From: Candidatus Poribacteria bacterium
Lineage (GTDB): Bacteria; Poribacteria; WGA-4E; WGA-3G
DNA length: 43,043 bases
Direction of reading: 5' to 3'
Assembly (NCBI GenBank): GCA_022825665.1
Contig: JAJDWI010000109.1
Coordinates: 1-43,043, forward strand
Shown here: positions 3,698-35,358 of the stretch, in pieces
Layout: every line of letters starts with the position of its first letter
Numbering within the stretch: the stretch's first letter is position 1
The notes under the pieces: model-generated
Databases searched by the model: none
What the model was told of the DNA's origin: nothing
The model's input: the letters and a program-made list of their open reading frames with translations, nothing else
Translations under genes and position numbers: made by a program

Positions 3698-5575
3698 TTA
3701 ATTGTCAAAATCAAGATCCCACAACAGCACGGTACCATCCGCACTCCCACTCACCAATGTCTTACCATCAGGACTAAACGCTAAACTATAGACTGTATAC
3801 CTATGTCCATGCAATGTTTTTATATGTGTACCTGTATCCACATTCCAAAGCCATATAGTTTTACCCCAATTTATACCACATGCCAACGTCTTACCATCAG
3901 GACTAAAGGCAACACACCTCACTCCATCCGGATACCCATCCAGCACATCAATAGTTTCACCGGATTTTGAATTCCACAATCGGACGGTTTTGTCATCGCT
4001 TGCACTGGCAATCATATTTCCATCAGGACTATAAGCGACACCTCTCACAGCAGCCGCATGTCCTTCCAACGTCAAGAGTAAAGTACGCGTTTGTGCATTC
4101 CAAGTTCGGACGGTGTTATCCGCACACCCGCTTGCAAACATAGATCCATCTGGACTGAATACTACACTATTGACAGGTTCCCTATTCACAGAAATCGTCC
4201 TGAACTTCTCACCTGTTGGCACTTTCCACAGTCGAATGTTACCATCTTGACCACTACTCATCAATATTTTTCCATTCGGACTGAGCGCGACACTATGTAC
4301 CCAATAGGTTTCGCCAACCATTGATGGCTGTGTTGCGTTTGTCGGTATATCCCACAAACACACAGTACTATCACGACTACCACTTGCCAATGTCTTTCCA
4401 TCTGTGCTGAACACGACGCTTATTACTTCCGATGTATGTGCTTTTATCTCTCTAATAAATTCCAAGGTCTGTGGATTCCAAAACTGAATGTAATGGTCAT
4501 GTTTCCCAATTGCCAACATTTTACCATCCGGACTAAACGCGGTACTATAGGCAATCCTGGGATGTCCTCTGATGATCCGAAGCTGTTCCGCGGTTTCTAC
4601 ATCCGACAAACGCACCGTGCCATCCCGACTCGCGCTAAACAATGTTTTGCCATCAGGACTAAACAAGACGCTATACGCCCAAGAATTATGCTCTGGAAAG
4701 TCTCGAAGATGTGTGCCAGTTTGCACATGCCATAGACTAATTTTTCTGTCTCGGCTACAACTTGCCAGTAACTGTCCATTTGGACTGAATGCCACGCTCA
4801 ACGCATTAGACCTAAATCCTACCAATGTTTGTAAGCGTTCACCTGTCTGCACATTCCATAGACACACGGTTTCGTCCGCAGCACCACTTGCCAACTTTTT
4901 CCCATCAGGACTGAACGCAACATCACAAACATATTTCGTATGCTCAGCAAACGTCTGTATGGATTCACCGGTTTGCACATCCCACAAGCGCAAAGTTGTG
5001 TCCTCACTTGAACTCGCCAATGTTGTACCATCCGGACTGAAATCTACACTTGTGACATCATCCGTATGTCCTGTTAACGTCCGAAGGTGTGCACTTGTCC
5101 GCACATCCCATAGACGGATGGTCTTATCTTTACTTGCACTCGCGAGTATAGTCCCATCTGGATTGAATGCAACGCCTCTTATCTCCCCTTCATGTCCTAC
5201 CATCGTGTGAAGCAGTGCACCGGTTTGCACATCCCACAAGCGCACGGTTTCATCTCTACTTCCGCTTGCTAAAAGAACCTCATCTGAACTAAACATAACG
5301 CTCAATACCTCATCGTTATGTTCTGTCAGCAAGGAAAGTGCTTCGTCAGTGTGTGCATCGTAAATCCAAATCCCGGTGCTACACGCTACAGCTAATAGAT
5401 TACCATCATCGGAAAGTGCAATGTTGCCCGTTATCCCACCTTTCCCGATCCGTACTTTTGTGCCTTCAGGTAAGTGCTGTAGATGCGAATCGGTTGCTTC
5501 TTGTGCGGTGGTGTTTAGAGGAATGGTGTATATTATTAACCAAATTGCTAATGTCAGAAGAAGTGTTTTTTGCAT
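3698..5575 (-). CDS. Secreted WD40 repeat protein (two-propeller)
   Basis: 625-residue protein with a Sec-type signal peptide (about residues 1-24: hydrophobic LLLTLAIWLIIYTIPL, then TTAQ cleavage region). The rest is an unbroken series of 14 WD40 repeats of about 41 residues, each with a V-x-FSPDG-K-LASGS-D-x-TVRLWD core. Fourteen blades fit two seven-bladed propellers. No catalytic domain is visible, so the likely role is a protein- or ligand-binding scaffold outside the cytoplasm. It lies directly downstream of a diverged tandem paralogue and is probably co-transcribed with it. The last 130 bp or so are almost identical to the paralogue while the rest is clearly diverged. Confidence 0.92.
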   Translation of the reverse strand: MQKTLLLTLAIWLIIYTIPLNTTAQEATDSHLQHLPEGTKVRIGKGGITGNIALSDDGNLLAVACSTGIWIYDAHTDEALSLLTEHNDEVLSVMFSSDEVLLASGSRDETVRLWDVQTGALLHTMVGHEGEIRGVAFNPDGTILASASKDKTIRLWDVRTSAHLRTLTGHTDDVTSVDFSPDGTTLASSSEDTTLRLWDVQTGESIQTFAEHTKYVCDVAFSPDGKKLASGAADETVCLWNVQTGERLQTLVGFRSNALSVAFSPNGQLLASCSRDRKISLWHVQTGTHLRDFPEHNSWAYSVLFSPDGKTLFSASRDGTVRLSDVETAEQLRIIRGHPRIAYSTAFSPDGKMLAIGKHDHYIQFWNPQTLEFIREIKAHTSEVISVVFSTDGKTLASGSRDSTVCLWDIPTNATQPSMVGETYWVHSVALSPNGKILMSSGQDGNIRLWKVPTGEKFRTISVNREPVNSVVFSPDGSMFASGCADNTVRTWNAQTRTLLLTLEGHAAAVRGVAYSPDGNMIASASDDKTVRLWNSKSGETIDVLDGYPDGVRCVAFSPDGKTLACGINWGKTIWLWNVDTGTHIKTLHGHRYTVYSLAFSPDGKTLVSGSADGTVLLWDLDFDN

Positions 5576-5637: not shown

Positions 5638-5752
5638 GGAGGAAACGCGTTCGTAGTCGCGCAATTTATTGCGCCTCTTACATTCACCGGTGGCGAGGTT
5701 TCCTAACCTCGCTTGTTATTTAAGGTCTAAGTAATTCTAAAATCCACTATGA
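5638..5752. repeat. Dispersed repeat copy without the 35-nt insert
   Basis: Contains the 'aaacgcgttcgtagtcgcgc' repeat, here with the uninterrupted junction 'attgcgcctcttac' at about 5668-5681, then a 'gaggtttcctaacctcgc' hairpin (about 5695-5712) and a 'gtctaagtaattctaaaat' module that overlaps the 3' end of the downstream WD40 reading frame. The same chain of modules recurs near 10120-10225 and 30240-30420. Confidence 0.6.
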
Positions 5753-5925
5753 TTATCAAGATCCCAAAACAGCACGGTACCATCCGCACTCCCACTCACC
5801 AATGTCTTACCATCAGGACTAAACGCTAAACTATAGACTGTATACCTATGTCCATACAATGTTTTTATATGTGTACCTGTATCCACATTCCATAGCCAAA
5901 TGGTATTACCAAAAGCATGCCACAT
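5737..5925 (-). pseudogene. Frameshifted 3' end of the second WD40 gene
   Basis: This reading frame carries the last one and a half WD40 repeats (NTIWLWNVDTGTHIK, then LAFSPDGKTLVSGSADGTVL and the end WDLDNHSGF). It continues the preceding WD40 gene after a one-base shift. Compared with the neighbouring paralogue, a base is missing at about 5909-5914 (TTTTGG where TTTTGGGG-type spacing is expected on the coding strand). It is either a real inactivating or truncating mutation or an assembly error. It should be read together with the main frame ending at 5865. Confidence 0.7.
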
Positions 5926-7619
5926 GCTAACGTCTTACCATCAGGACTAAACGCAACACTCTCCGCGCCATCCGGATGCCCTTTCAACACACGAATAGTT
6001 TCACCGGATTTTGAATTCCACAGGCGCACGGTTTTATCTTCACTTCCACTGGCTATCATCTTTCCATCAGGACTATAAGCCACAACTTTTACGTAATGCG
6101 TATGTCCTTCCAACGTCAAATGTAAAGTACCGGTCTGTACATCCCATATACGTACGATTTTATCCTCACTCCCACTTGCAAACATTGTCCCATCTGGACT
6201 GAACACTACACTGTGGACAGCATCCTTATTCACAGAAATCGTGTTGAGATTCTCTCCTGTCGGCACTTTCCACAGATTGATGTTACCATATTGATTCCCA
6301 CACGCTACTATTTTCCCATTCGGACTGAGTGCAACATTATGTATCCAATCACTTTCTCTAACCAGAGTTGGTTGTGTAGCGTTTGTTGGTATATCCCACA
6401 AACATACGGTATCATCATTACTCCCACTTGCCAATGTCTTTCCATCTGTGCTGAACACGACACTTACAACACTGAACCTATGTGCCTTTATCTCCCTAAT
6501 CAATTCAAATGTCTGTGTATCCCACAACTGGATAATAGGATCGTTTCTCCCAACTGCCAACATTTTGCCATCTGGACTAAATGCTACGCTATATACCTCC
6601 TGCGTGTGATTACCAAACATCCGTATCTGTTTTCCGGTTTGCACATCCCATAAACGAAAGGATCCATCCCGACTTGAACTCCAAAATGTCTTACCATCAG
6701 CATTAAACACAACATTATATCCCCAAGAACGGTGTCCTTCTAAGTCTTGAAGTTGCGTTCCTGTTGCCACATGCCACATTCGGATTGTTCCATCGCCGTT
6801 ACAACTTACCAATAACTGTCCATCCGGACTGAATGTAACGCTTAATGCAGTAGACTTAAATCCTCCCATCTGATGGAGTTCAATACCTGACTGTACATCC
6901 CATAGTCGTACGGTTTTGTCGTCACCAGCACTTGCCAGTTTTTTTCCATCGGAGGAGAACGCAACATCTATAACATATCGTGTATGTCCGGTAAACCTCT
7001 GGATCGATTCGCTGGTCTGCACATCCCATATACGTAAGGTCGTATCATCACTTGAGCTTGCCAGTGTATTACCATCTGGACTGAATTCCACACTTGTAAC
7101 ATCATTCGTATGTCCTGTTAACGTCTGAAGGTGTACACCTATTTCCACATCCCACAAACGGATGGTCGTGTCCTCACTCCCACTTGCTAATGTCTTTCCA
7201 TCAGGATTGAATGCAACACCTCCTGTATTCCCTTCATGTCCTGCCATTGTGTGAAGTAGTGAGCCAGTTTGAACATCCCACAGACGCACGGATTTATCAT
7301 TGCTTCCGCTTGCTATCATTGAACTGTCGGGACTGAAAGCCACACAACTAACCGAATCGGTATGTTCTGCAAGCATGTGGAGTGCCTTTTCTGTGTTTAC
7401 GTCGTAGATCCAAATCCCAGTATTGCACGCTACTGCTAATAGATTACCATCATCGGAAAGTGCGATGTTGCCTGTTATTCCGCCTTTTCCTAAACGTGCT
7501 TTCGCACTTTCGGGTAAGTGCTGTAGATGCCAATCGGTTGCTTCTTGTGCAATGGTGTTTAGAGGAATGGTGTGTATTATTAACCAAATTGATAATGTCA
7601 GAATAAGTCTTTTTTGCAT
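5865..7619 (-). CDS. Secreted WD40 repeat protein, 3' frameshift
   Basis: Tandem paralogue of the neighbouring WD40 gene. The start at 7619 is chosen because it gives the same signal peptide as the paralogue (MQKRLILTLSIWLIIHTIPL); the longer upstream extension would run into the DHDPS-family gene. It encodes the same WD40 repeat series, but near the thirteenth repeat the frame shifts and ends in an unrelated tail (GMLLVIPFGYGMWIQVHI). The true end of the gene is at 5737 in another frame. The truncated product would lack the closing blade of the second propeller. The gene probably encodes an extracytoplasmic scaffold, as for its neighbour. Confidence 0.85.
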   Translation of the reverse strand: MQKRLILTLSIWLIIHTIPLNTIAQEATDWHLQHLPESAKARLGKGGITGNIALSDDGNLLAVACNTGIWIYDVNTEKALHMLAEHTDSVSCVAFSPDSSMIASGSNDKSVRLWDVQTGSLLHTMAGHEGNTGGVAFNPDGKTLASGSEDTTIRLWDVEIGVHLQTLTGHTNDVTSVEFSPDGNTLASSSDDTTLRIWDVQTSESIQRFTGHTRYVIDVAFSSDGKKLASAGDDKTVRLWDVQSGIELHQMGGFKSTALSVTFSPDGQLLVSCNGDGTIRMWHVATGTQLQDLEGHRSWGYNVVFNADGKTFWSSSRDGSFRLWDVQTGKQIRMFGNHTQEVYSVAFSPDGKMLAVGRNDPIIQLWDTQTFELIREIKAHRFSVVSVVFSTDGKTLASGSNDDTVCLWDIPTNATQPTLVRESDWIHNVALSPNGKIVACGNQYGNINLWKVPTGENLNTISVNKDAVHSVVFSPDGTMFASGSEDKIVRIWDVQTGTLHLTLEGHTHYVKVVAYSPDGKMIASGSEDKTVRLWNSKSGETIRVLKGHPDGAESVAFSPDGKTLACGMLLVIPFGYGMWIQVHI

Positions 7620-7701
7620 AAAAGTGTTGTATTTTTTAGTATGGTAGTCTGTAGGTAGGGTGAAACGTCCCCCACCTACTTTTGGCGACATCCCGTTATC
7701 G

Positions 7702-8673
7702 TCAGTTGACGCAATTGTATCCAACCGACTCAAGTTCACTCCGAATTTTGTCAATCTCAGCAGAAGACAATTGACGTAGTGGTCGCCGCATCGTCATGGA
7801 TGGAAATCTACCCATCAACCATCTGGCACACTTCATCCGTTGGTGTGCGTCACTACTCGGTTCTCCGAAGTTATAAACAATCCGCGCCAACGTATCCACC
7901 TGATTACGCGCTTTACGCGCACCAATCAGATCATTATTGAGTGCTGCGTGGACTACTGCCACCATTAATTCGGGAACAAATCCTGCAAATCCGATGAGTG
8001 CACCATCACTACCTTCCAAAAGCGAAGCAAGTAGATATTCATCATGACAGGTTAAAATTGGCACATCGGGAGCAGCTTCCTTTAGTTGTTCATAGTCCCA
8101 TCGCCAACGCGCCATATCGCGGGTACCCATTTTTATACAGACAACTTGTGGGATTTTCACCATCTCCAACATCTCTTCAAGGGTATATCCAGCCTTCGTC
8201 CAAGCAGGATATTGATGCACAATGATAGGTATATCAGCACCTTCAGCGACATCTTGAAAATAGCCAACGGCAGTTTCAGGTGTTCTACCGAAACGTAACC
8301 AGTGATGTGCAGGCATCAATAGAATCGCATCTGCGCCTGCTTCCTTCGCTGCGAGCGCATCGTCAATTGCAGGCAAACTCCCTTCTGCGCTAACACCTGA
8401 AACGACTTTAACCTTATCACCAACTGCATCTGCAGTGATTTGAGTGACACGTTGCCGTTCAGGGAAACGGAGTGCCATAATTTCACCAGTATGTCCATTA
8501 CACACAACGCCTTTTATGCCGTCAACACTGGCAAGTTCCTGCATATATTCACGCAAACCTTCTTCATCTATCGATTCATCAGGGTGGAAAGGGCAGAGTG
8601 TTGCAGGAAATACACCTGCCCACGGATGGTGTTGCCACTTAAGATTCATGAGTTTATATATACCTCTCTTCAT
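7702..8673 (-). CDS. DHDPS/N-acetylneuraminate lyase family aldolase
   Basis: 323-residue class I aldolase/lyase of the dihydrodipicolinate synthase superfamily, a cytoplasmic TIM barrel acting through a Schiff base. The Schiff-base lysine is K181 in VVCIKMGTRD and the conserved tyrosine is Y155 in IIVHQYPAW. The carboxylate-binding loop is GHTGE (residues 60-64) rather than the usual G-T/S-TGE, which argues against a plain DapA and for a pyruvate- or keto-acid-using sugar-acid lyase. Its neighbourhood of Gfo/Idh/MocA dehydrogenases fits sugar or uronate catabolism. A later ATG at 8649 is an alternative start. A TATAAT-like box (minus strand, 8694-8699) lies just upstream, without a clear -35. 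Confidence 0.88.
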   Translation of the reverse strand: MKRGIYKLMNLKWQHHPWAGVFPATLCPFHPDESIDEEGLREYMQELASVDGIKGVVCNGHTGEIMALRFPERQRVTQITADAVGDKVKVVSGVSAEGSLPAIDDALAAKEAGADAILLMPAHHWLRFGRTPETAVGYFQDVAEGADIPIIVHQYPAWTKAGYTLEEMLEMVKIPQVVCIKMGTRDMARWRWDYEQLKEAAPDVPILTCHDEYLLASLLEGSDGALIGFAGFVPELMVAVVHAALNNDLIGARKARNQVDTLARIVYNFGEPSSDAHQRMKCARWLMGRFPSMTMRRPLRQLSSAEIDKIRSELESVGYNCVN

Positions 8674-10094: not shown

Positions 10095-10225
10095 CATAGG
10101 TGTCAACTTAAGGAAGTGATGCGTTTGTAGTCGTGCAATTCATTGCCAAATCAACGCCAAATGCGCTTATGGCATTTGGCACCTCTTACATTCAACGGTA
10201 GGCGAGGTTTCCTAACCTCGCCAGT
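10095..10225. repeat. Dispersed repeat copy carrying the 35-nt palindrome
   Basis: Same repeat as at 5638, but between 'cattgc' and 'cctcttac' it contains an extra 35 nt (10147-10181) whose core 'gccaaatgcgcttatggc' is palindromic. It is followed by the 'gaggtttcctaacctcgcc' hairpin. The rest of 9860-10350 is AT-rich; no 16S rRNA and no credible ORF is present there. Confidence 0.6.
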
Positions 10226-10538: not shown

Positions 10539-10611
10539 GGGGGTGTAGCTCAGCTGGGAGAGCAACTGCTTTGCACGCAGTAGGTCAGCGGTTCAACTCC
10601 GCTCATCTCCA
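10539..10611 (+). tRNA. tRNA-Ala (anticodon UGC)
   Basis: A 73-nt cloverleaf. The acceptor stem GGGGGTG pairs with CATCTCC (two G-U pairs), the discriminator is A, and the anticodon loop TTTGCAC has TGC at positions 34-36. A T-arm AGCGG-TTCAACT-CCGCT is present. CCA is not encoded. In many bacteria this tRNA lies in the 16S-23S spacer; here it leads the unit without a 16S gene. Confidence 0.95.
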
Positions 10612-10612
10612 T

Positions 10613-10673
10613 CGTCTATCAGAAGTAATTGCACTTCTGGATAAATAGACGGCGTTCTTTGACAACTGAATAG
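10613..10673 (+). promoter_or_regulatory. tRNA-23S spacer: hairpin, boxA-like site, processing-stem 5' arm
   Basis: A long hairpin (CGTCTAT 10613-10619 with ATAGACG 10645-10651, inner CAGAAGT/ACTTCTG) follows the tRNA. Next comes a boxA-like GTTCTTTGACAAC (about 10654-10666). The 16-nt segment 10658-10673 is perfectly complementary to 13735-13750 on the far side of the 23S gene. The latter is the expected RNase III-type pre-23S processing stem. Confidence 0.75.
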
Positions 10674-10708
10674 AGAGGGTAAATCGGTAGAATAGAAAAA
10701 TATCACCT

Positions 10709-13708
<3,000 letters not shown>

Positions 13709-13734
13709 TATTTTTCTCTACCGTTCCTCAATAT

Positions 13735-13750
13735 CTATTCAGTTGTCAAA
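13735..13750 (+). other. Pre-23S processing stem, 3' arm
   Basis: ctattcagttgtcaaa is the exact reverse complement of 10658-10673. The neighbouring bases (tttttctctacc against ggtagaatagaaaaa) extend the pairing imperfectly towards the mature ends. This brackets the 23S gene and separates it from 5S. Confidence 0.8.
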
Positions 13751-13765
13751 CATTATTATACACCT

Positions 13766-13883
<118 letters not shown>

Positions 13884-25800: not shown

Positions 25801-26035
25801 GTCTTTTTCCTCTTGTTGAGATGCTCTTTTTCTGATTTACTTGCTTCAGAAGTATTGTAGCATATATATATTAAAAATATCCACACAATTTCTATCCTAT
25901 CCAGAGGAATTCAATTGTTGATTTTTCTGTCTGAATTGCTGTAGGCGCGGAAGGAAGAGTTCTTTTCCGTGTCTTCAGTGTTTTCAGTGATTCTGACAAA
26001 ATAGCGGATATAAATTTATCGGTTTTTCTCCTTTA

Positions 26036-26292
26036 AAAAAGATACAAAACTGTGTTGTTTTGCAACATTTTTGTATCTTTTTCGTGTTGTTGGTCTGAAG
26101 TTAGTGTCTGACTGGGTTTGTGGGTTGTTGAAGTCGGTTTTTTTGCGGTTTTTCGGGGTGAAAAAAAATTGTTTTTTGTATCTTTTTTATCTACTGGGTT
26201 ATGGTCGGTTTTTGGGTGGATGTTTTTTGGGTGACGGGTGACGAATTTTGTTGAGAATATGGATTGTATGCAGTTTTTGTTTTTCATAGTGG
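26036..26292 (-). ncRNA. Candidate structured RNA element 1 (GATACA type)
   Basis: On the minus strand an extended -10 promoter (TGTTATAAT; TATAAT at 26297-26302) is followed by a conserved module of about 110 nt, then a divergent part ending in a strong hairpin. The hairpin has 14-bp arms (26036-26049 and 26069-26082, AAAAAGATACAAAA) with an inner GTTG/CAAC stem and a T-run. The same GATACAAAA motif occurs a third time just after the conserved module (about 26172-26189). An 84-codon ORF starts only about 10 nt after the -10 box with no ribosome site, so a non-coding transcript is more likely. It is matched by element 2 at 32283. Confidence 0.55.
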
Positions 26293-26600
26293 TAGTATTA
26301 TAACAGGTGTTAAGAGGGAATGGAAGGGATTGTGAGGTTGGGAACCATAAGTTTCATGTGTGTTTCATGTATGTTTCGGTTTTTTGGTTTAGTTTTCGGT
26401 ATTGTCTGAACCAGGATTTTCAGGATTATAGGATGGACAGGATTAGGAGTTGGTGAGTATAAATTCCGTTGTCCAGGATGAAGACTACCTTTTGCAAAGG
26501 AACATTGGCATATATAGTGAACTTTAGAATTATAGTAAAATTCGTAATTACTTGGACACTTTGGTAGGTTCGGTTTCCTAATCAAACCATAGGCATCAAT
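26293..26600. repeat. Upstream flank of element 1 (repeat similar to 32140-32282)
   Basis: Read on the minus strand, this flank resembles the flank of element 2: a 'cctgaaaatcctggttcaga' module, then a 'acatgaaac' stretch and a 'cccttccatt' run leading into the promoter. The similarity between the two elements therefore extends well outside the transcribed part. A 'ttatagtaaaattcgtaatt' module lies near 26532. The earlier gap, 25801-26030, holds nothing recognisable apart from the AT-rich region upstream of the PBP/OmpA gene. Confidence 0.5.
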
Positions 26601-26639: not shown

Positions 26640-27020
26640 GTTCTGGGACTTTAGGACTGTATGTGGGCAAGTGGGCGAGGAGACCTCGCCCCTACGAGGC
26701 TGTTATCAGGGTCTGGGCACGTCCCGTTCGTAGGGGCGGGTTTCCCCGCCCGATATTCATGTCCTGCGGGCGAGGGGACCTCGCCCCTACGATAATGTCC
26801 GAAGCGACAAATGCCAAACGCGCATTTGGCGTTGATTTGGCAATGAATTGCGCGACTACAAACGCGTTTTCTCCTTAAATTGACGCTAATGGTTCGGTTT
26901 CCTAACCGAACCGGTGTTTATTCAGCATCATAGATGCGGTTAGGAAACCGCATCTACCGCGGAGTGTGTACTTACTTTATAGGTTTCACTATAATTTGAC
27001 GCTTATGGTGTGATTAGGAA
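26640..27020. repeat. Array of mixed palindromic repeats
   Basis: Three GC-rich palindromes (gggcgaggagacctcgccc-type at about 26670, 26730 and 26768), then a reverse copy of the 'gcgcaatgaattgcgcgac' repeat with the 35-nt palindrome inserted (26805-26839). Then come several ggttcggtttcctaaccgaa / gcggttaggaaaccgc hairpins (about 26890, 26935 and 27010). No gene is seen. It is the densest repeat cluster of the window. Confidence 0.65.
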
Positions 27021-30159: not shown

Positions 30160-30425
30160 TTAGTTTATAGTAGAATCCATAATTATTGACACACTACGGT
30201 AGGTTCAGTTTCCTAACCGAACCATGAGCGTCAATTTTAAGAGGAGATGCGTTTATAGTCGCGCAATTCATTGCCAAATCAACGTCAAATGCGCGTATGG
30301 CATTTGTCGCCTCTTACACTCATAGGTAGGCAGGGGATGCTAAATAGCATTCATACCGTTGATTTGGAGGTTTCCTAACTTCGCTTGTTAATAGTATCTA
30401 AGTAATTCTAAAATTCGCTATAAAT
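30160..30425. repeat. Repeat mosaic with an inserted 35-nt palindrome
   Basis: A 'ggttcagtttcctaaccgaa' hairpin near 30200, the 'gcgtttatagtcgcgcaatt' repeat with the 35-nt insert at 30275-30309, then 'ggtttcctaacttcgc' and 'taagtaattctaaaattcgc' modules near 30395. This is the same order as at 5638-5750 and 10095-10225. No gene is seen. Confidence 0.6.
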
Positions 30426-32139: not shown

Positions 32140-32282
32140 CTTATCCTGTAAATCCTGAAATCTTGTCCATCTTGGTTCAGACAAACCAAAAAACTGAAAA
32201 CTACATAAAAGATACATGAAACCTATTGTTCCAAACCTCAGAACCCCTTCCATCCCTTCTTAACATCTGTTATAATACTACC
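32140..32282. repeat. Upstream flank of element 2
   Basis: Same modules, in the same order, as upstream of element 1: cctgaaatc / ggttcagacaa (near 32150-32187), acatgaaacc, ccttccatccc, then the extended -10 (TGTTATAAT; TATAAT at 32271-32276). The part before 32140 has a diverged 'ctgtaggagcg' type repeat near 32115. Confidence 0.5.
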
Positions 32283-32512
32283 ACTATGAAAAACAAAAAA
32301 CGCACACAATCCATATTCTCAACAAAATTCGTCACCCGTCACCCCAAAAATATCCACCCAAAAACCGACCATAACCAAGCAAATAAAAACGTACCAAACA
32401 GAAAATTTCAGAAAGTATCGTACACACTGATAAACCCAGTTCCAGACTGGCAAAACCCCAAAAACCAAAACGTACACAGAAACGAAAAACAGCCTTTTTG
32501 TGTACGTTTTTA
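32283..32512 (+). ncRNA. Candidate structured RNA element 2 (CGTACAC type)
   Basis: Counterpart of element 1 on the other strand. After the extended -10 box comes a conserved module of about 110 nt (start near the ATG at 32286, with the same 'atccatattctcaacaaaat' core). The following part is different and ends in a hairpin with perfect 12-bp arms (32467-32478 AAAACGTACACA and 32499-32510) and a short T-run. The motif ACGTAC recurs just after the conserved module (about 32388-32395) and TCGTACAC at 32418. The 75-codon ORF starting at 32286 has no ribosome site. Confidence 0.55.
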
Positions 32513-32529
32513 GAAGGAGCAAATAACCG

Positions 32530-32583
32530 ATGTCCTTACAAGAAAAGCACAAACAATTCTCCATCAGAAAAATCGGCAATTGA
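32530..32583 (+). CDS. Possible 17-residue ORF
   Basis: ATG at 32530 with GGAG 10 nt upstream; it encodes MSLQEKHKQFSIRKIGN and stops. It lies between the end of element 2 and the TonB receptor promoter. There is no support beyond the ribosome site; it may be a remnant. Confidence 0.2.
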   Translation: MSLQEKHKQFSIRKIGN

Positions 32584-32610
32584 ATGATGCTGAGTGGTAT
32601 CAAGGTGATT

Positions 32611-35032: not shown

Positions 35033-35358
35033 AAACGCGTTCGTAGTCGCGCAATTCATTGCGCATCTTACATTACATTCTGTAGGAGCGATTTCCGAAT
35101 CGCGACCCTACCACATGGACACTAAAGCCTCAGAGAGGCGACAGGTGTATAGCAAACAATGATACTAATACCGTTTCTAACATATAATGTCTCTGGTTTG
35201 TAGCACAGACTTTTAGTTTGTGTCCTAAAGGATTACGACCATAATAACCGTAAATGAGACAATAATTTATAGAAATGGTATAAGAAGCCCCAGAGGGGCG
35301 GAATGTGTATAGAATATGAAACTCCCAAACACAAAGCCCCAGCGGGGCGACAGGTAGA
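35033..35358. repeat. Intergenic repeats and three REP-like palindromes
   Basis: A copy of the 'gcgcaattcattgcgc' repeat without the insert (35033-35073), a 'ctgtaggagcgatttccgaa' repeat near 35089, and three same-orientation palindromes with tails: about 35125-35154, 35284-35312 and 35334-35358 (aagccccagaggggcg and variants, tail ga-aggtgtatag). These match those at 8901-8979. No gene is seen from 34976 to 35464. Confidence 0.65.

Follow-up and report, generated by a model that had tools for sequence, protein, structure and literature searches.

The Locus and Its Genome

The window, by which we mean the whole stretch of 43,043 nucleotides that was analyzed, makes up the whole of contig G000:C25, one of 170 in a 4.53-Mb genome (G000) from Candidatus Poribacteria, a sponge bacterium. 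Its only Rfam matches are to 23S rRNA, 5S rRNA and one tRNA (10539-13883); 16S rRNA is without an Rfam match anywhere in the window, and the 16S gene may be unlinked to the 23S and 5S genes that lie here. Two adjoining WD40-repeat-like paralogues (3698-5575 and 5865-7754, minus strand) share stretches that are 82-96% identical, and an abundant intergenic repeat other than the one treated below recurs around TAGTCGCGCAATTCATTGC at 122-154, 5643-5684, 10117-10158, 26840-26872, 30245-30286 and 35033-35074.

Our subject is a non-coding unit, element 2, which occupies the gap between two divergent genes, one with a LamG domain and one for a TonB-dependent receptor, together with a related unit, element 1, whose downstream neighbor encodes an NMT1-like domain. 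Their parts are given below, with the bounds of element 2 taken from its 226-nt match to element 1 and from the identity to a sister species, which drops about 100-150 nt before the ATG at 32286 and recovers at about +250 to +300.

32183..32535, plus strand: element 2 as a whole, a non-coding promoter-leader repeat unit (ends approximate)
32268..32276, plus strand: extended -10 promoter-like TGTTATAAT, read from the sequence
32286..32388, plus strand: A/C-rich conserved module, non-coding, starting with the ATG at 32286
32389..32395, plus strand: motif site 1, ACGTACC (CGTACC at 32390-32395)
32419..32427, plus strand: middle motif site CGTACACAC, present mainly in CGTAC types
32436..32450, plus strand: conserved core CCAGTTCCAGACTGG, from the leader alignment
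32467..32479, plus strand: closing inverted repeat, 5' arm AAAACGTACACAG, including CGTACACAG at 32471-32479
32500..32511, plus strand: closing inverted repeat, 3' arm GTGTACGTTTTT, including GTGTACG at 32500-32506
32512..32519, plus strand: ribosome-binding-like AGAAGGAG of a lost gene, at the same place in intact genes
32530..32583, plus strand: remnant of the parent gene's start, MSLQEKHKQFSIRKIGN and then a stop (the intact homologue begins MELQEKHKEFAVKSFAQF)
32567..32590, plus strand: trailing motif GAAAAATCGGCAATTGAATGATGC, a possible 3' end of the unit
26033..26390, minus strand: element 1, a GATACA-type copy
26182-26177, 26077-26072 and, inverted, 26046-26041, minus strand: motif sites of element 1

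The two elements, which lie on opposite strands, match at 87% identity over those 226 nt, and an earlier note on this DNA was right that they have a promoter, a conserved module and a flank in common. The extended -10 of element 2 was not listed by a simple sigma-70 scan, and a -35 hexamer is not evident there. Could the ATG that opens the module be the start of a gene? We rejected it as one: the synonymous fraction is 0.207 against 0.200 expected, change is similar at all codon positions, and the frame is broken in 38 of 95 copies. The note had also placed one motif after the module and in both arms of the closing hairpin. CGTAC does stand at all three places, and once more at the middle place, beyond those three positions; the full motif does not, as site 1 reads CGTACC and the arms read CGTACA.

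A Dispersed Family and Its Three-Site Motif

Elements 1 and 2 are members of a family of non-coding repeats of about 350 bp, of which we collected 57 distinct copies in this genome from a pattern search, BLAST matches and retrieved stretches. The family and its common architecture emerge directly from computation, and the promoter pattern CTGTTATAATACTANNACTATG, allowed up to 3 mismatches, finds 56 places in the genome against 0 for its reversed control. The motif was scored at site 1 and both arms in 53 of the 57 copies, with four left out, including one (L014) whose sites read CGTACC, CGTACA and CGTACA. Sorted by 3' arm, the 53 comprise CGTACA (23), CGAACC (10), GATACA (7), CGTACC (6) and CGCAC(T/A/C) (7).

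Within a copy, the two arms carry the same 6-nt motif in 46 of 53 cases against 13.8 expected by shuffling, and site 1 agrees with the 5' arm in 33 against 8.6 (p <= 5e-5 for each); exact agreement of all three sites is found in 31. The idea of a family with an interchangeable recognition sequence, which the note had put forward, is borne out by motif types that vary between copies and mostly agree inside a copy. When the genome's copies are compared at the three positions, as the note had proposed, matching is far above shuffling, and yet 22 of the 53 copies break it; a requirement that the three positions match is unsupported in view of so many violations, and the concerted change of the motif is explained instead by the exchange of blocks between copies that we describe below. 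In other words, the three sites tend to match but need not.

The trailing motif, at up to 6 substitutions and within about 500 nt of the element, accompanies 26 of the 57 copies (reversed, 0 of 57), and genome-wide it occurs at 26 places at up to 3 mismatches, some of them without a known element. One such sequence, GAAAAATCNACAATTGAATGYCTC, lies in the window at 25904-25927 (minus strand) and is possibly the end of a larger composite repeat. We also saw a divergent copy (L092, on the reverse strand of G000:C33) that has the same promoter and, in place of the usual motif, a AACAACTAAAAA-like unit repeated several times; it is among the copies left unscored.

Block Exchange at Fixed Loci

How can several sites within one copy come to change together? 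In a close sister genome (G014), 32 locus pairs with our genome were recognized from 38 copies, a pair being defined by flanks of at least 88% identity over at least 200 nt, and one G000 copy standing in two pairs with its flanks on two G014 contigs. Averages over all 32 are blurred by pairs with a single orthologous flank, and we used the 19 pairs with two. In these, the element is 87.3% identical and the flanks 94.2% (Wilcoxon p = 2e-4), and the element falls more than 3 points below its flanks in 13 of the 19. Along the locus, a median identity of 97.6% gives way to one of 88.6% some 100-150 nt ahead of the ATG, and by about +300 the median is back to at least 94%.

The motif type differs at 15 of the 29 pairs in which both 3' arms were read, and in 13 of these 15 all three sites differ. 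At the locus of element 2 itself, the sister has CGTACC in both arms where our genome has CGTACA, and site 1 is CGTACC in both; at another locus (L064/L136), one species has GATACA and the other CGTAC inside matching flanks. That is, whole blocks have been replaced at loci that stayed where they were. From these alignments, the simplest explanation would be non-allelic gene conversion, which in our reading would also be why some copies have mixed motifs.

Element 1 has no counterpart in the corresponding syntenic gap of the sister genome, a gap that is poorly aligned and from which a clean empty site was not obtained, and genome G002 has no alignable element 2. A separate MITE-like element was met at a further locus, where an insertion of about 400 bp is present in our genome (L030, G000:C94) and absent in the sister (L142, G014:C15); its ends are like CAGGGTTATTTAGTTTT...AACTAAATAACCCTG, with an apparent GGGTA duplication.

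The Parent Gene and Its Protein

In almost all copies, the hairpin is followed by AGAAGGAG or a near variant and, in many, by a truncated ORF start after it; a full ORF of the gene family was found behind none of the 57. A search with the truncated start located one intact gene in this genome (L105, G000:C98:35132-35836, 235 aa), and its leader has the same plan, with site 1, an AAACCC...ACTGG block, direct and inverted CGTACC sites and a ribosome-binding site. The block, of which the conserved core of element 2 is a part, is common to the leaders of intact genes. In genome G010, a full ORF stands behind the promoter and module of the window family and a GATACA-type hairpin (L150), and from this locus the window's elements can be recognized as leaders that have lost their gene.

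The repeat, then, is the promoter-leader of a Poribacteria-specific gene, the product of which is 155-280 aa long. Homologues turned up in 26 of 59 relatives by search and, by profile search, in 42 of 58 family genomes belonging to 2 of 3 genera; a scan of genome contigs gave 40 homologue loci, all of them in Poribacteria, and none was found in viral contigs, phages or plasmids. A more distant homologue of about 250 aa (L168, L169, L170), with a similar downstream neighbor in each case, occurs in several genomes of the second genus and is perhaps a vertically inherited relative. Tandem arrangements occur at L151 and L166, where a family gene is accompanied by another one, or by an additional leader, with a different motif.

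The protein has a DUF2280-like N-terminal helix-turn-helix and a long predicted coiled coil. A match to DUF2280 (PF10045) at E <= 0.01 was obtained for 16 of 24 family proteins, the best at 2.4e-6, and the gathering cut-off of 24 bits is passed by L175 (25.9 bits) and not by L105 (20 bits). The predicted model of L105 (pLDDT 82, pTM 0.51) is all-helical, with helices at 5-16, 21-31 and 55-144 and then three further ones, and it has no structural match at E <= 0.001 in the PDB or among viral models. Pfam detects no transposase or nuclease domain in the 24 proteins.

Protein and Motif Change Together

What would such a protein recognize? In intact genes, the motif is typically an A-tract and then NNTAC(C/A), with about three occurrences per leader in both orientations. 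Over 33 genes, the 200 nt upstream hold a mean of 3.4 occurrences of the gene's own motif against 0.14 of another gene's, and three or more own sites stand before 26 of the 33 genes, as against 1 of the 462 pairings with a foreign motif. To these counts the arms, as the source of the motif reading, contribute two own sites by construction, and each palindromic motif is counted twice. The sites come back at similar places relative to the gene start, around -25 to -60 and around -137 to -152; the farther of these places, which is comparable to site 1 of element 2, is occupied in many intact genes. Neighboring motifs often begin 10-12 bp from each other, as they might if they were to lie on the same face of the DNA.

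One residue of the protein follows one base of the motif. In all 14 tree rows that have Arg at position 21, the motif ends in C (NNTACC), and in all 19 rows that have a different residue there, it ends in A. The motifs were assigned by hand after the pattern had been seen, and two assignments fit NNTAC poorly: GTTTTC of L159, taken as a C motif, and that of the GTTATA group, taken as an A motif, with GTTACG in its other arm. With the first 42 residues excluded from the tree, residue 21 and motif base 6 each change four times, making four concordant independent pairs (sign test p = 0.125), and random placement of four changes reproduced the pattern in 0 of 200000 trials. Because the pattern was first noticed by eye, we scanned all columns, and residue 21 was the sole perfect match of 721 partitions (as Arg, with the identical set "basic"), the next best reaching 94%. 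Automatic motif calls for 57 genes assigned a final C to none of the 34 non-Arg genes and to 16 of the 23 Arg genes; of the seven Arg genes left, L153-L155 show CTTACC on inspection by eye, L280 is without a clear operator and three are without a call. For bases 1-2 of the motif, no protein residue stands out as a correlate.

Because residue 21 and motif base 6 covary, we predict that the motif is a binding site, most likely that of the very protein encoded behind it. The motif-specific partner that the note had imagined very probably exists, although we would look for it in the protein of the parent gene and not in a pairing RNA. The Arg-C rule does not carry over to leader-only copies: 20 of their gene remnants divide into Arg/C 1, Arg/A 2, non-Arg/C 5, non-Arg/A 9 and non-Arg/T 3, a mixture to be expected if leaders were exchanged without the dead gene.

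A Probable Detached Control Region and Its Rivals

We think it probable that element 2 is the detached control region of a family of DUF2280-like helix-turn-helix and coiled-coil genes, with a protein that binds its own leader and with block conversion among the copies. Such a region would be made up of a promoter, an operator-like motif array and a ribosome-binding site. The encoded protein, we infer, would bind the motif sites of its leader as DNA, not RNA, and so would regulate its own expression; the last base of the motif would be read by residue 21, located where the second predicted helix begins, Arg calling for C (G on the other strand) and other residues for A. Gene-less leader copies would then have accumulated in intergenic regions, where non-allelic gene conversion could replace whole blocks, such that all sites switch motif type together and chromosomal position is kept.

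Might the copies be no more than debris? They could be MITE-like relics: the motif would once have been bound by the transposase of a transposon, unknown or extinct, of which the copies are the ends, and it would now be without function, the agreement inside copies reflecting only subfamily ancestry. We regard this as possible and somewhat doubtful. There are dozens of gene-less copies against one intact gene, the motif types act as block subfamilies, the Arg-C rule is lost in gene remnants, and the trailing motif resembles a fixed end, all as relics would have it. However, the 24 family proteins lack the domains of a transposase or nuclease, the covariation of protein and motif is kept in intact genes, and no clean target-site duplication was seen. 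Positions are, moreover, mostly kept between the sister species (the 32 locus pairs from 38 copies), and the copies have therefore moved little in recent times. As for the ends of the unit, inspection by eye showed no terminal repeats in common among the copies, and the trailing motif accompanies 26 of the 57.

The note spoke of an RNA-like element, and a family of structured regulatory RNAs, attenuators or small RNAs, would make the hairpin a terminator before the ribosome-binding site, with any protein binding RNA. An inverted repeat with a T-run, an extended -10 immediately upstream, a fold of element 2 RNA better than its shuffles (z = -2.87) and covarying hairpin pairs across 26 leaders are what one would hope to see. 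The hairpin covariation, however, is equally expected of a DNA palindrome, and the T-runs, which are missing from the leaders L148, L175 and L196, are readable as the complement of the A-tract that belongs to the motif. The consensus of the 26 leaders is a hairpin of only 6 pairs at -0.41 kcal/mol, loop length varies widely, site 1 is a direct and not a complementary copy, a scan gave no terminator-like site, and Rfam has no match to the element in the window or in six loci with intact genes. We find the RNA reading unlikely on this showing and the note's description hard to keep; in our judgment, DNA sites read by a helix-turn-helix are the likelier reading.

A unit like the type III toxin-antitoxin systems, with a repeat RNA, a terminator and a toxin gene, is very improbable despite a similar order of promoter, repeated motif, hairpin, ribosome-binding site and ORF: the family proteins match DUF2280 and not a type III toxin family, their predicted fold is all-helical with a 90-residue helix, and PADLOC has no match in more than 1 of the 24 members. 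The hallmark of such systems is a downstream endoribonuclease of the ToxN/CptN/TenpN type, and Pfam, NCBIfam and PADLOC find none in the 24 family proteins. Reverse transcriptase is likewise absent from the family proteins and from the four flanking genes scanned in the window, and the retron-like or toxin-like role that the note entertained finds no such domain in either set. A role in defense was rejected too, the same proteins and genes showing no domain that would support it.

Comparison with Known Systems

Preferring the detached control region as we do, we can ask what it resembles. In REPIN/TnpAREP (RAYT) systems (PMC8266576), a gene product recognizes a repeated palindromic motif, and protein and repeat co-evolve. 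Here too, a palindromic repeat has many gene-less dispersed copies and one recognition gene in the genome (57 copies, one intact gene). Unlike in those systems, the Poribacteria protein has no HUH/Y1 transposase domain (Pfam, 24 proteins), and its repeats, which are about 350 bp long with a promoter and a ribosome-binding site, stay in place while their sequence is exchanged. The Correia repeat enclosed elements of Neisseria, as summarized in PMC2649163, number more than 100, are small and intergenic, have promoter potential and are mostly conserved in position between close strains. The Poribacteria repeats are likewise intergenic, promoter-bearing and mostly conserved in position; unlike the elements as summarized there, they have a parent gene with a covarying motif and exchange blocks of motif types.

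Non-allelic gene conversion between transposable elements has been put forward, in review and theory, as a rewiring mechanism that spreads binding-site variants (PMC6598467), and beside that proposal, the Poribacteria family is a candidate natural case in bacteria, with a matching change in the protein. As for the domain, a passage of PMC7760358 places a DUF2280 gene beside a phage terminase large subunit. The Poribacteria proteins have, like prophage DUF2280 proteins (PF10045), an N-terminal region resembling a helix-turn-helix; unlike the gene of that passage, they have no phage, plasmid or viral-contig relative among those we found.

Our literature search found no published account of these Poribacteria repeats, which does not establish their absence from print. 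Repeat-gene pairs, promoter-bearing elements and conversion as a means of rewiring are each familiar from the sources cited above, and their combination in Poribacteria, with a testable recognition rule, may be new.

Neighbors and Possible Reach

Why might this matter beyond one group of sponge bacteria? The family could serve as a bacterial test case for how a DNA-binding protein and dozens of its dispersed sites change specificity together, for in intact genes, one residue position tracks one motif base, and block exchange has swapped arrays of sites within the divergence of sister species. The recognition rule, Arg21 for TACC, is checkable by a simple binding assay, and the family hints at a possible role for the DUF2280-like domain outside phages.

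Where the copies lie also bears on what they may do. ORFs flank 48 of the copies on either side. Divergent regions hold 32 of these and convergent regions 0; in tandem regions, 14 point the way the genes do and 2 point against them. Such a mostly divergent or same-direction placement fits promoter regions. Overall, 52 of 54 copies are oriented toward the downstream gene, a count that is uninformative because divergent regions give it for either orientation; the informative part is the 14 against 2 in tandem regions, for which control repeats in the same regions were too few or too palindromic. Several downstream genes have, by eye, apparent promoter-like sequences of their own behind the element.

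One could go further and suppose that the leader copies are live operators of some fifty genes under self-recognizing DNA-binding proteins, with gene conversion re-assigning the regulator's specificity, which would make of them a self-rewiring regulon. We think this reading unlikely, and any effect on downstream genes we put forward as a conjecture. The ORFs that adjoin the copies include, judged from their sequences, GroEL-, GAPDH-, SRP54- and TonB-receptor-like ones.
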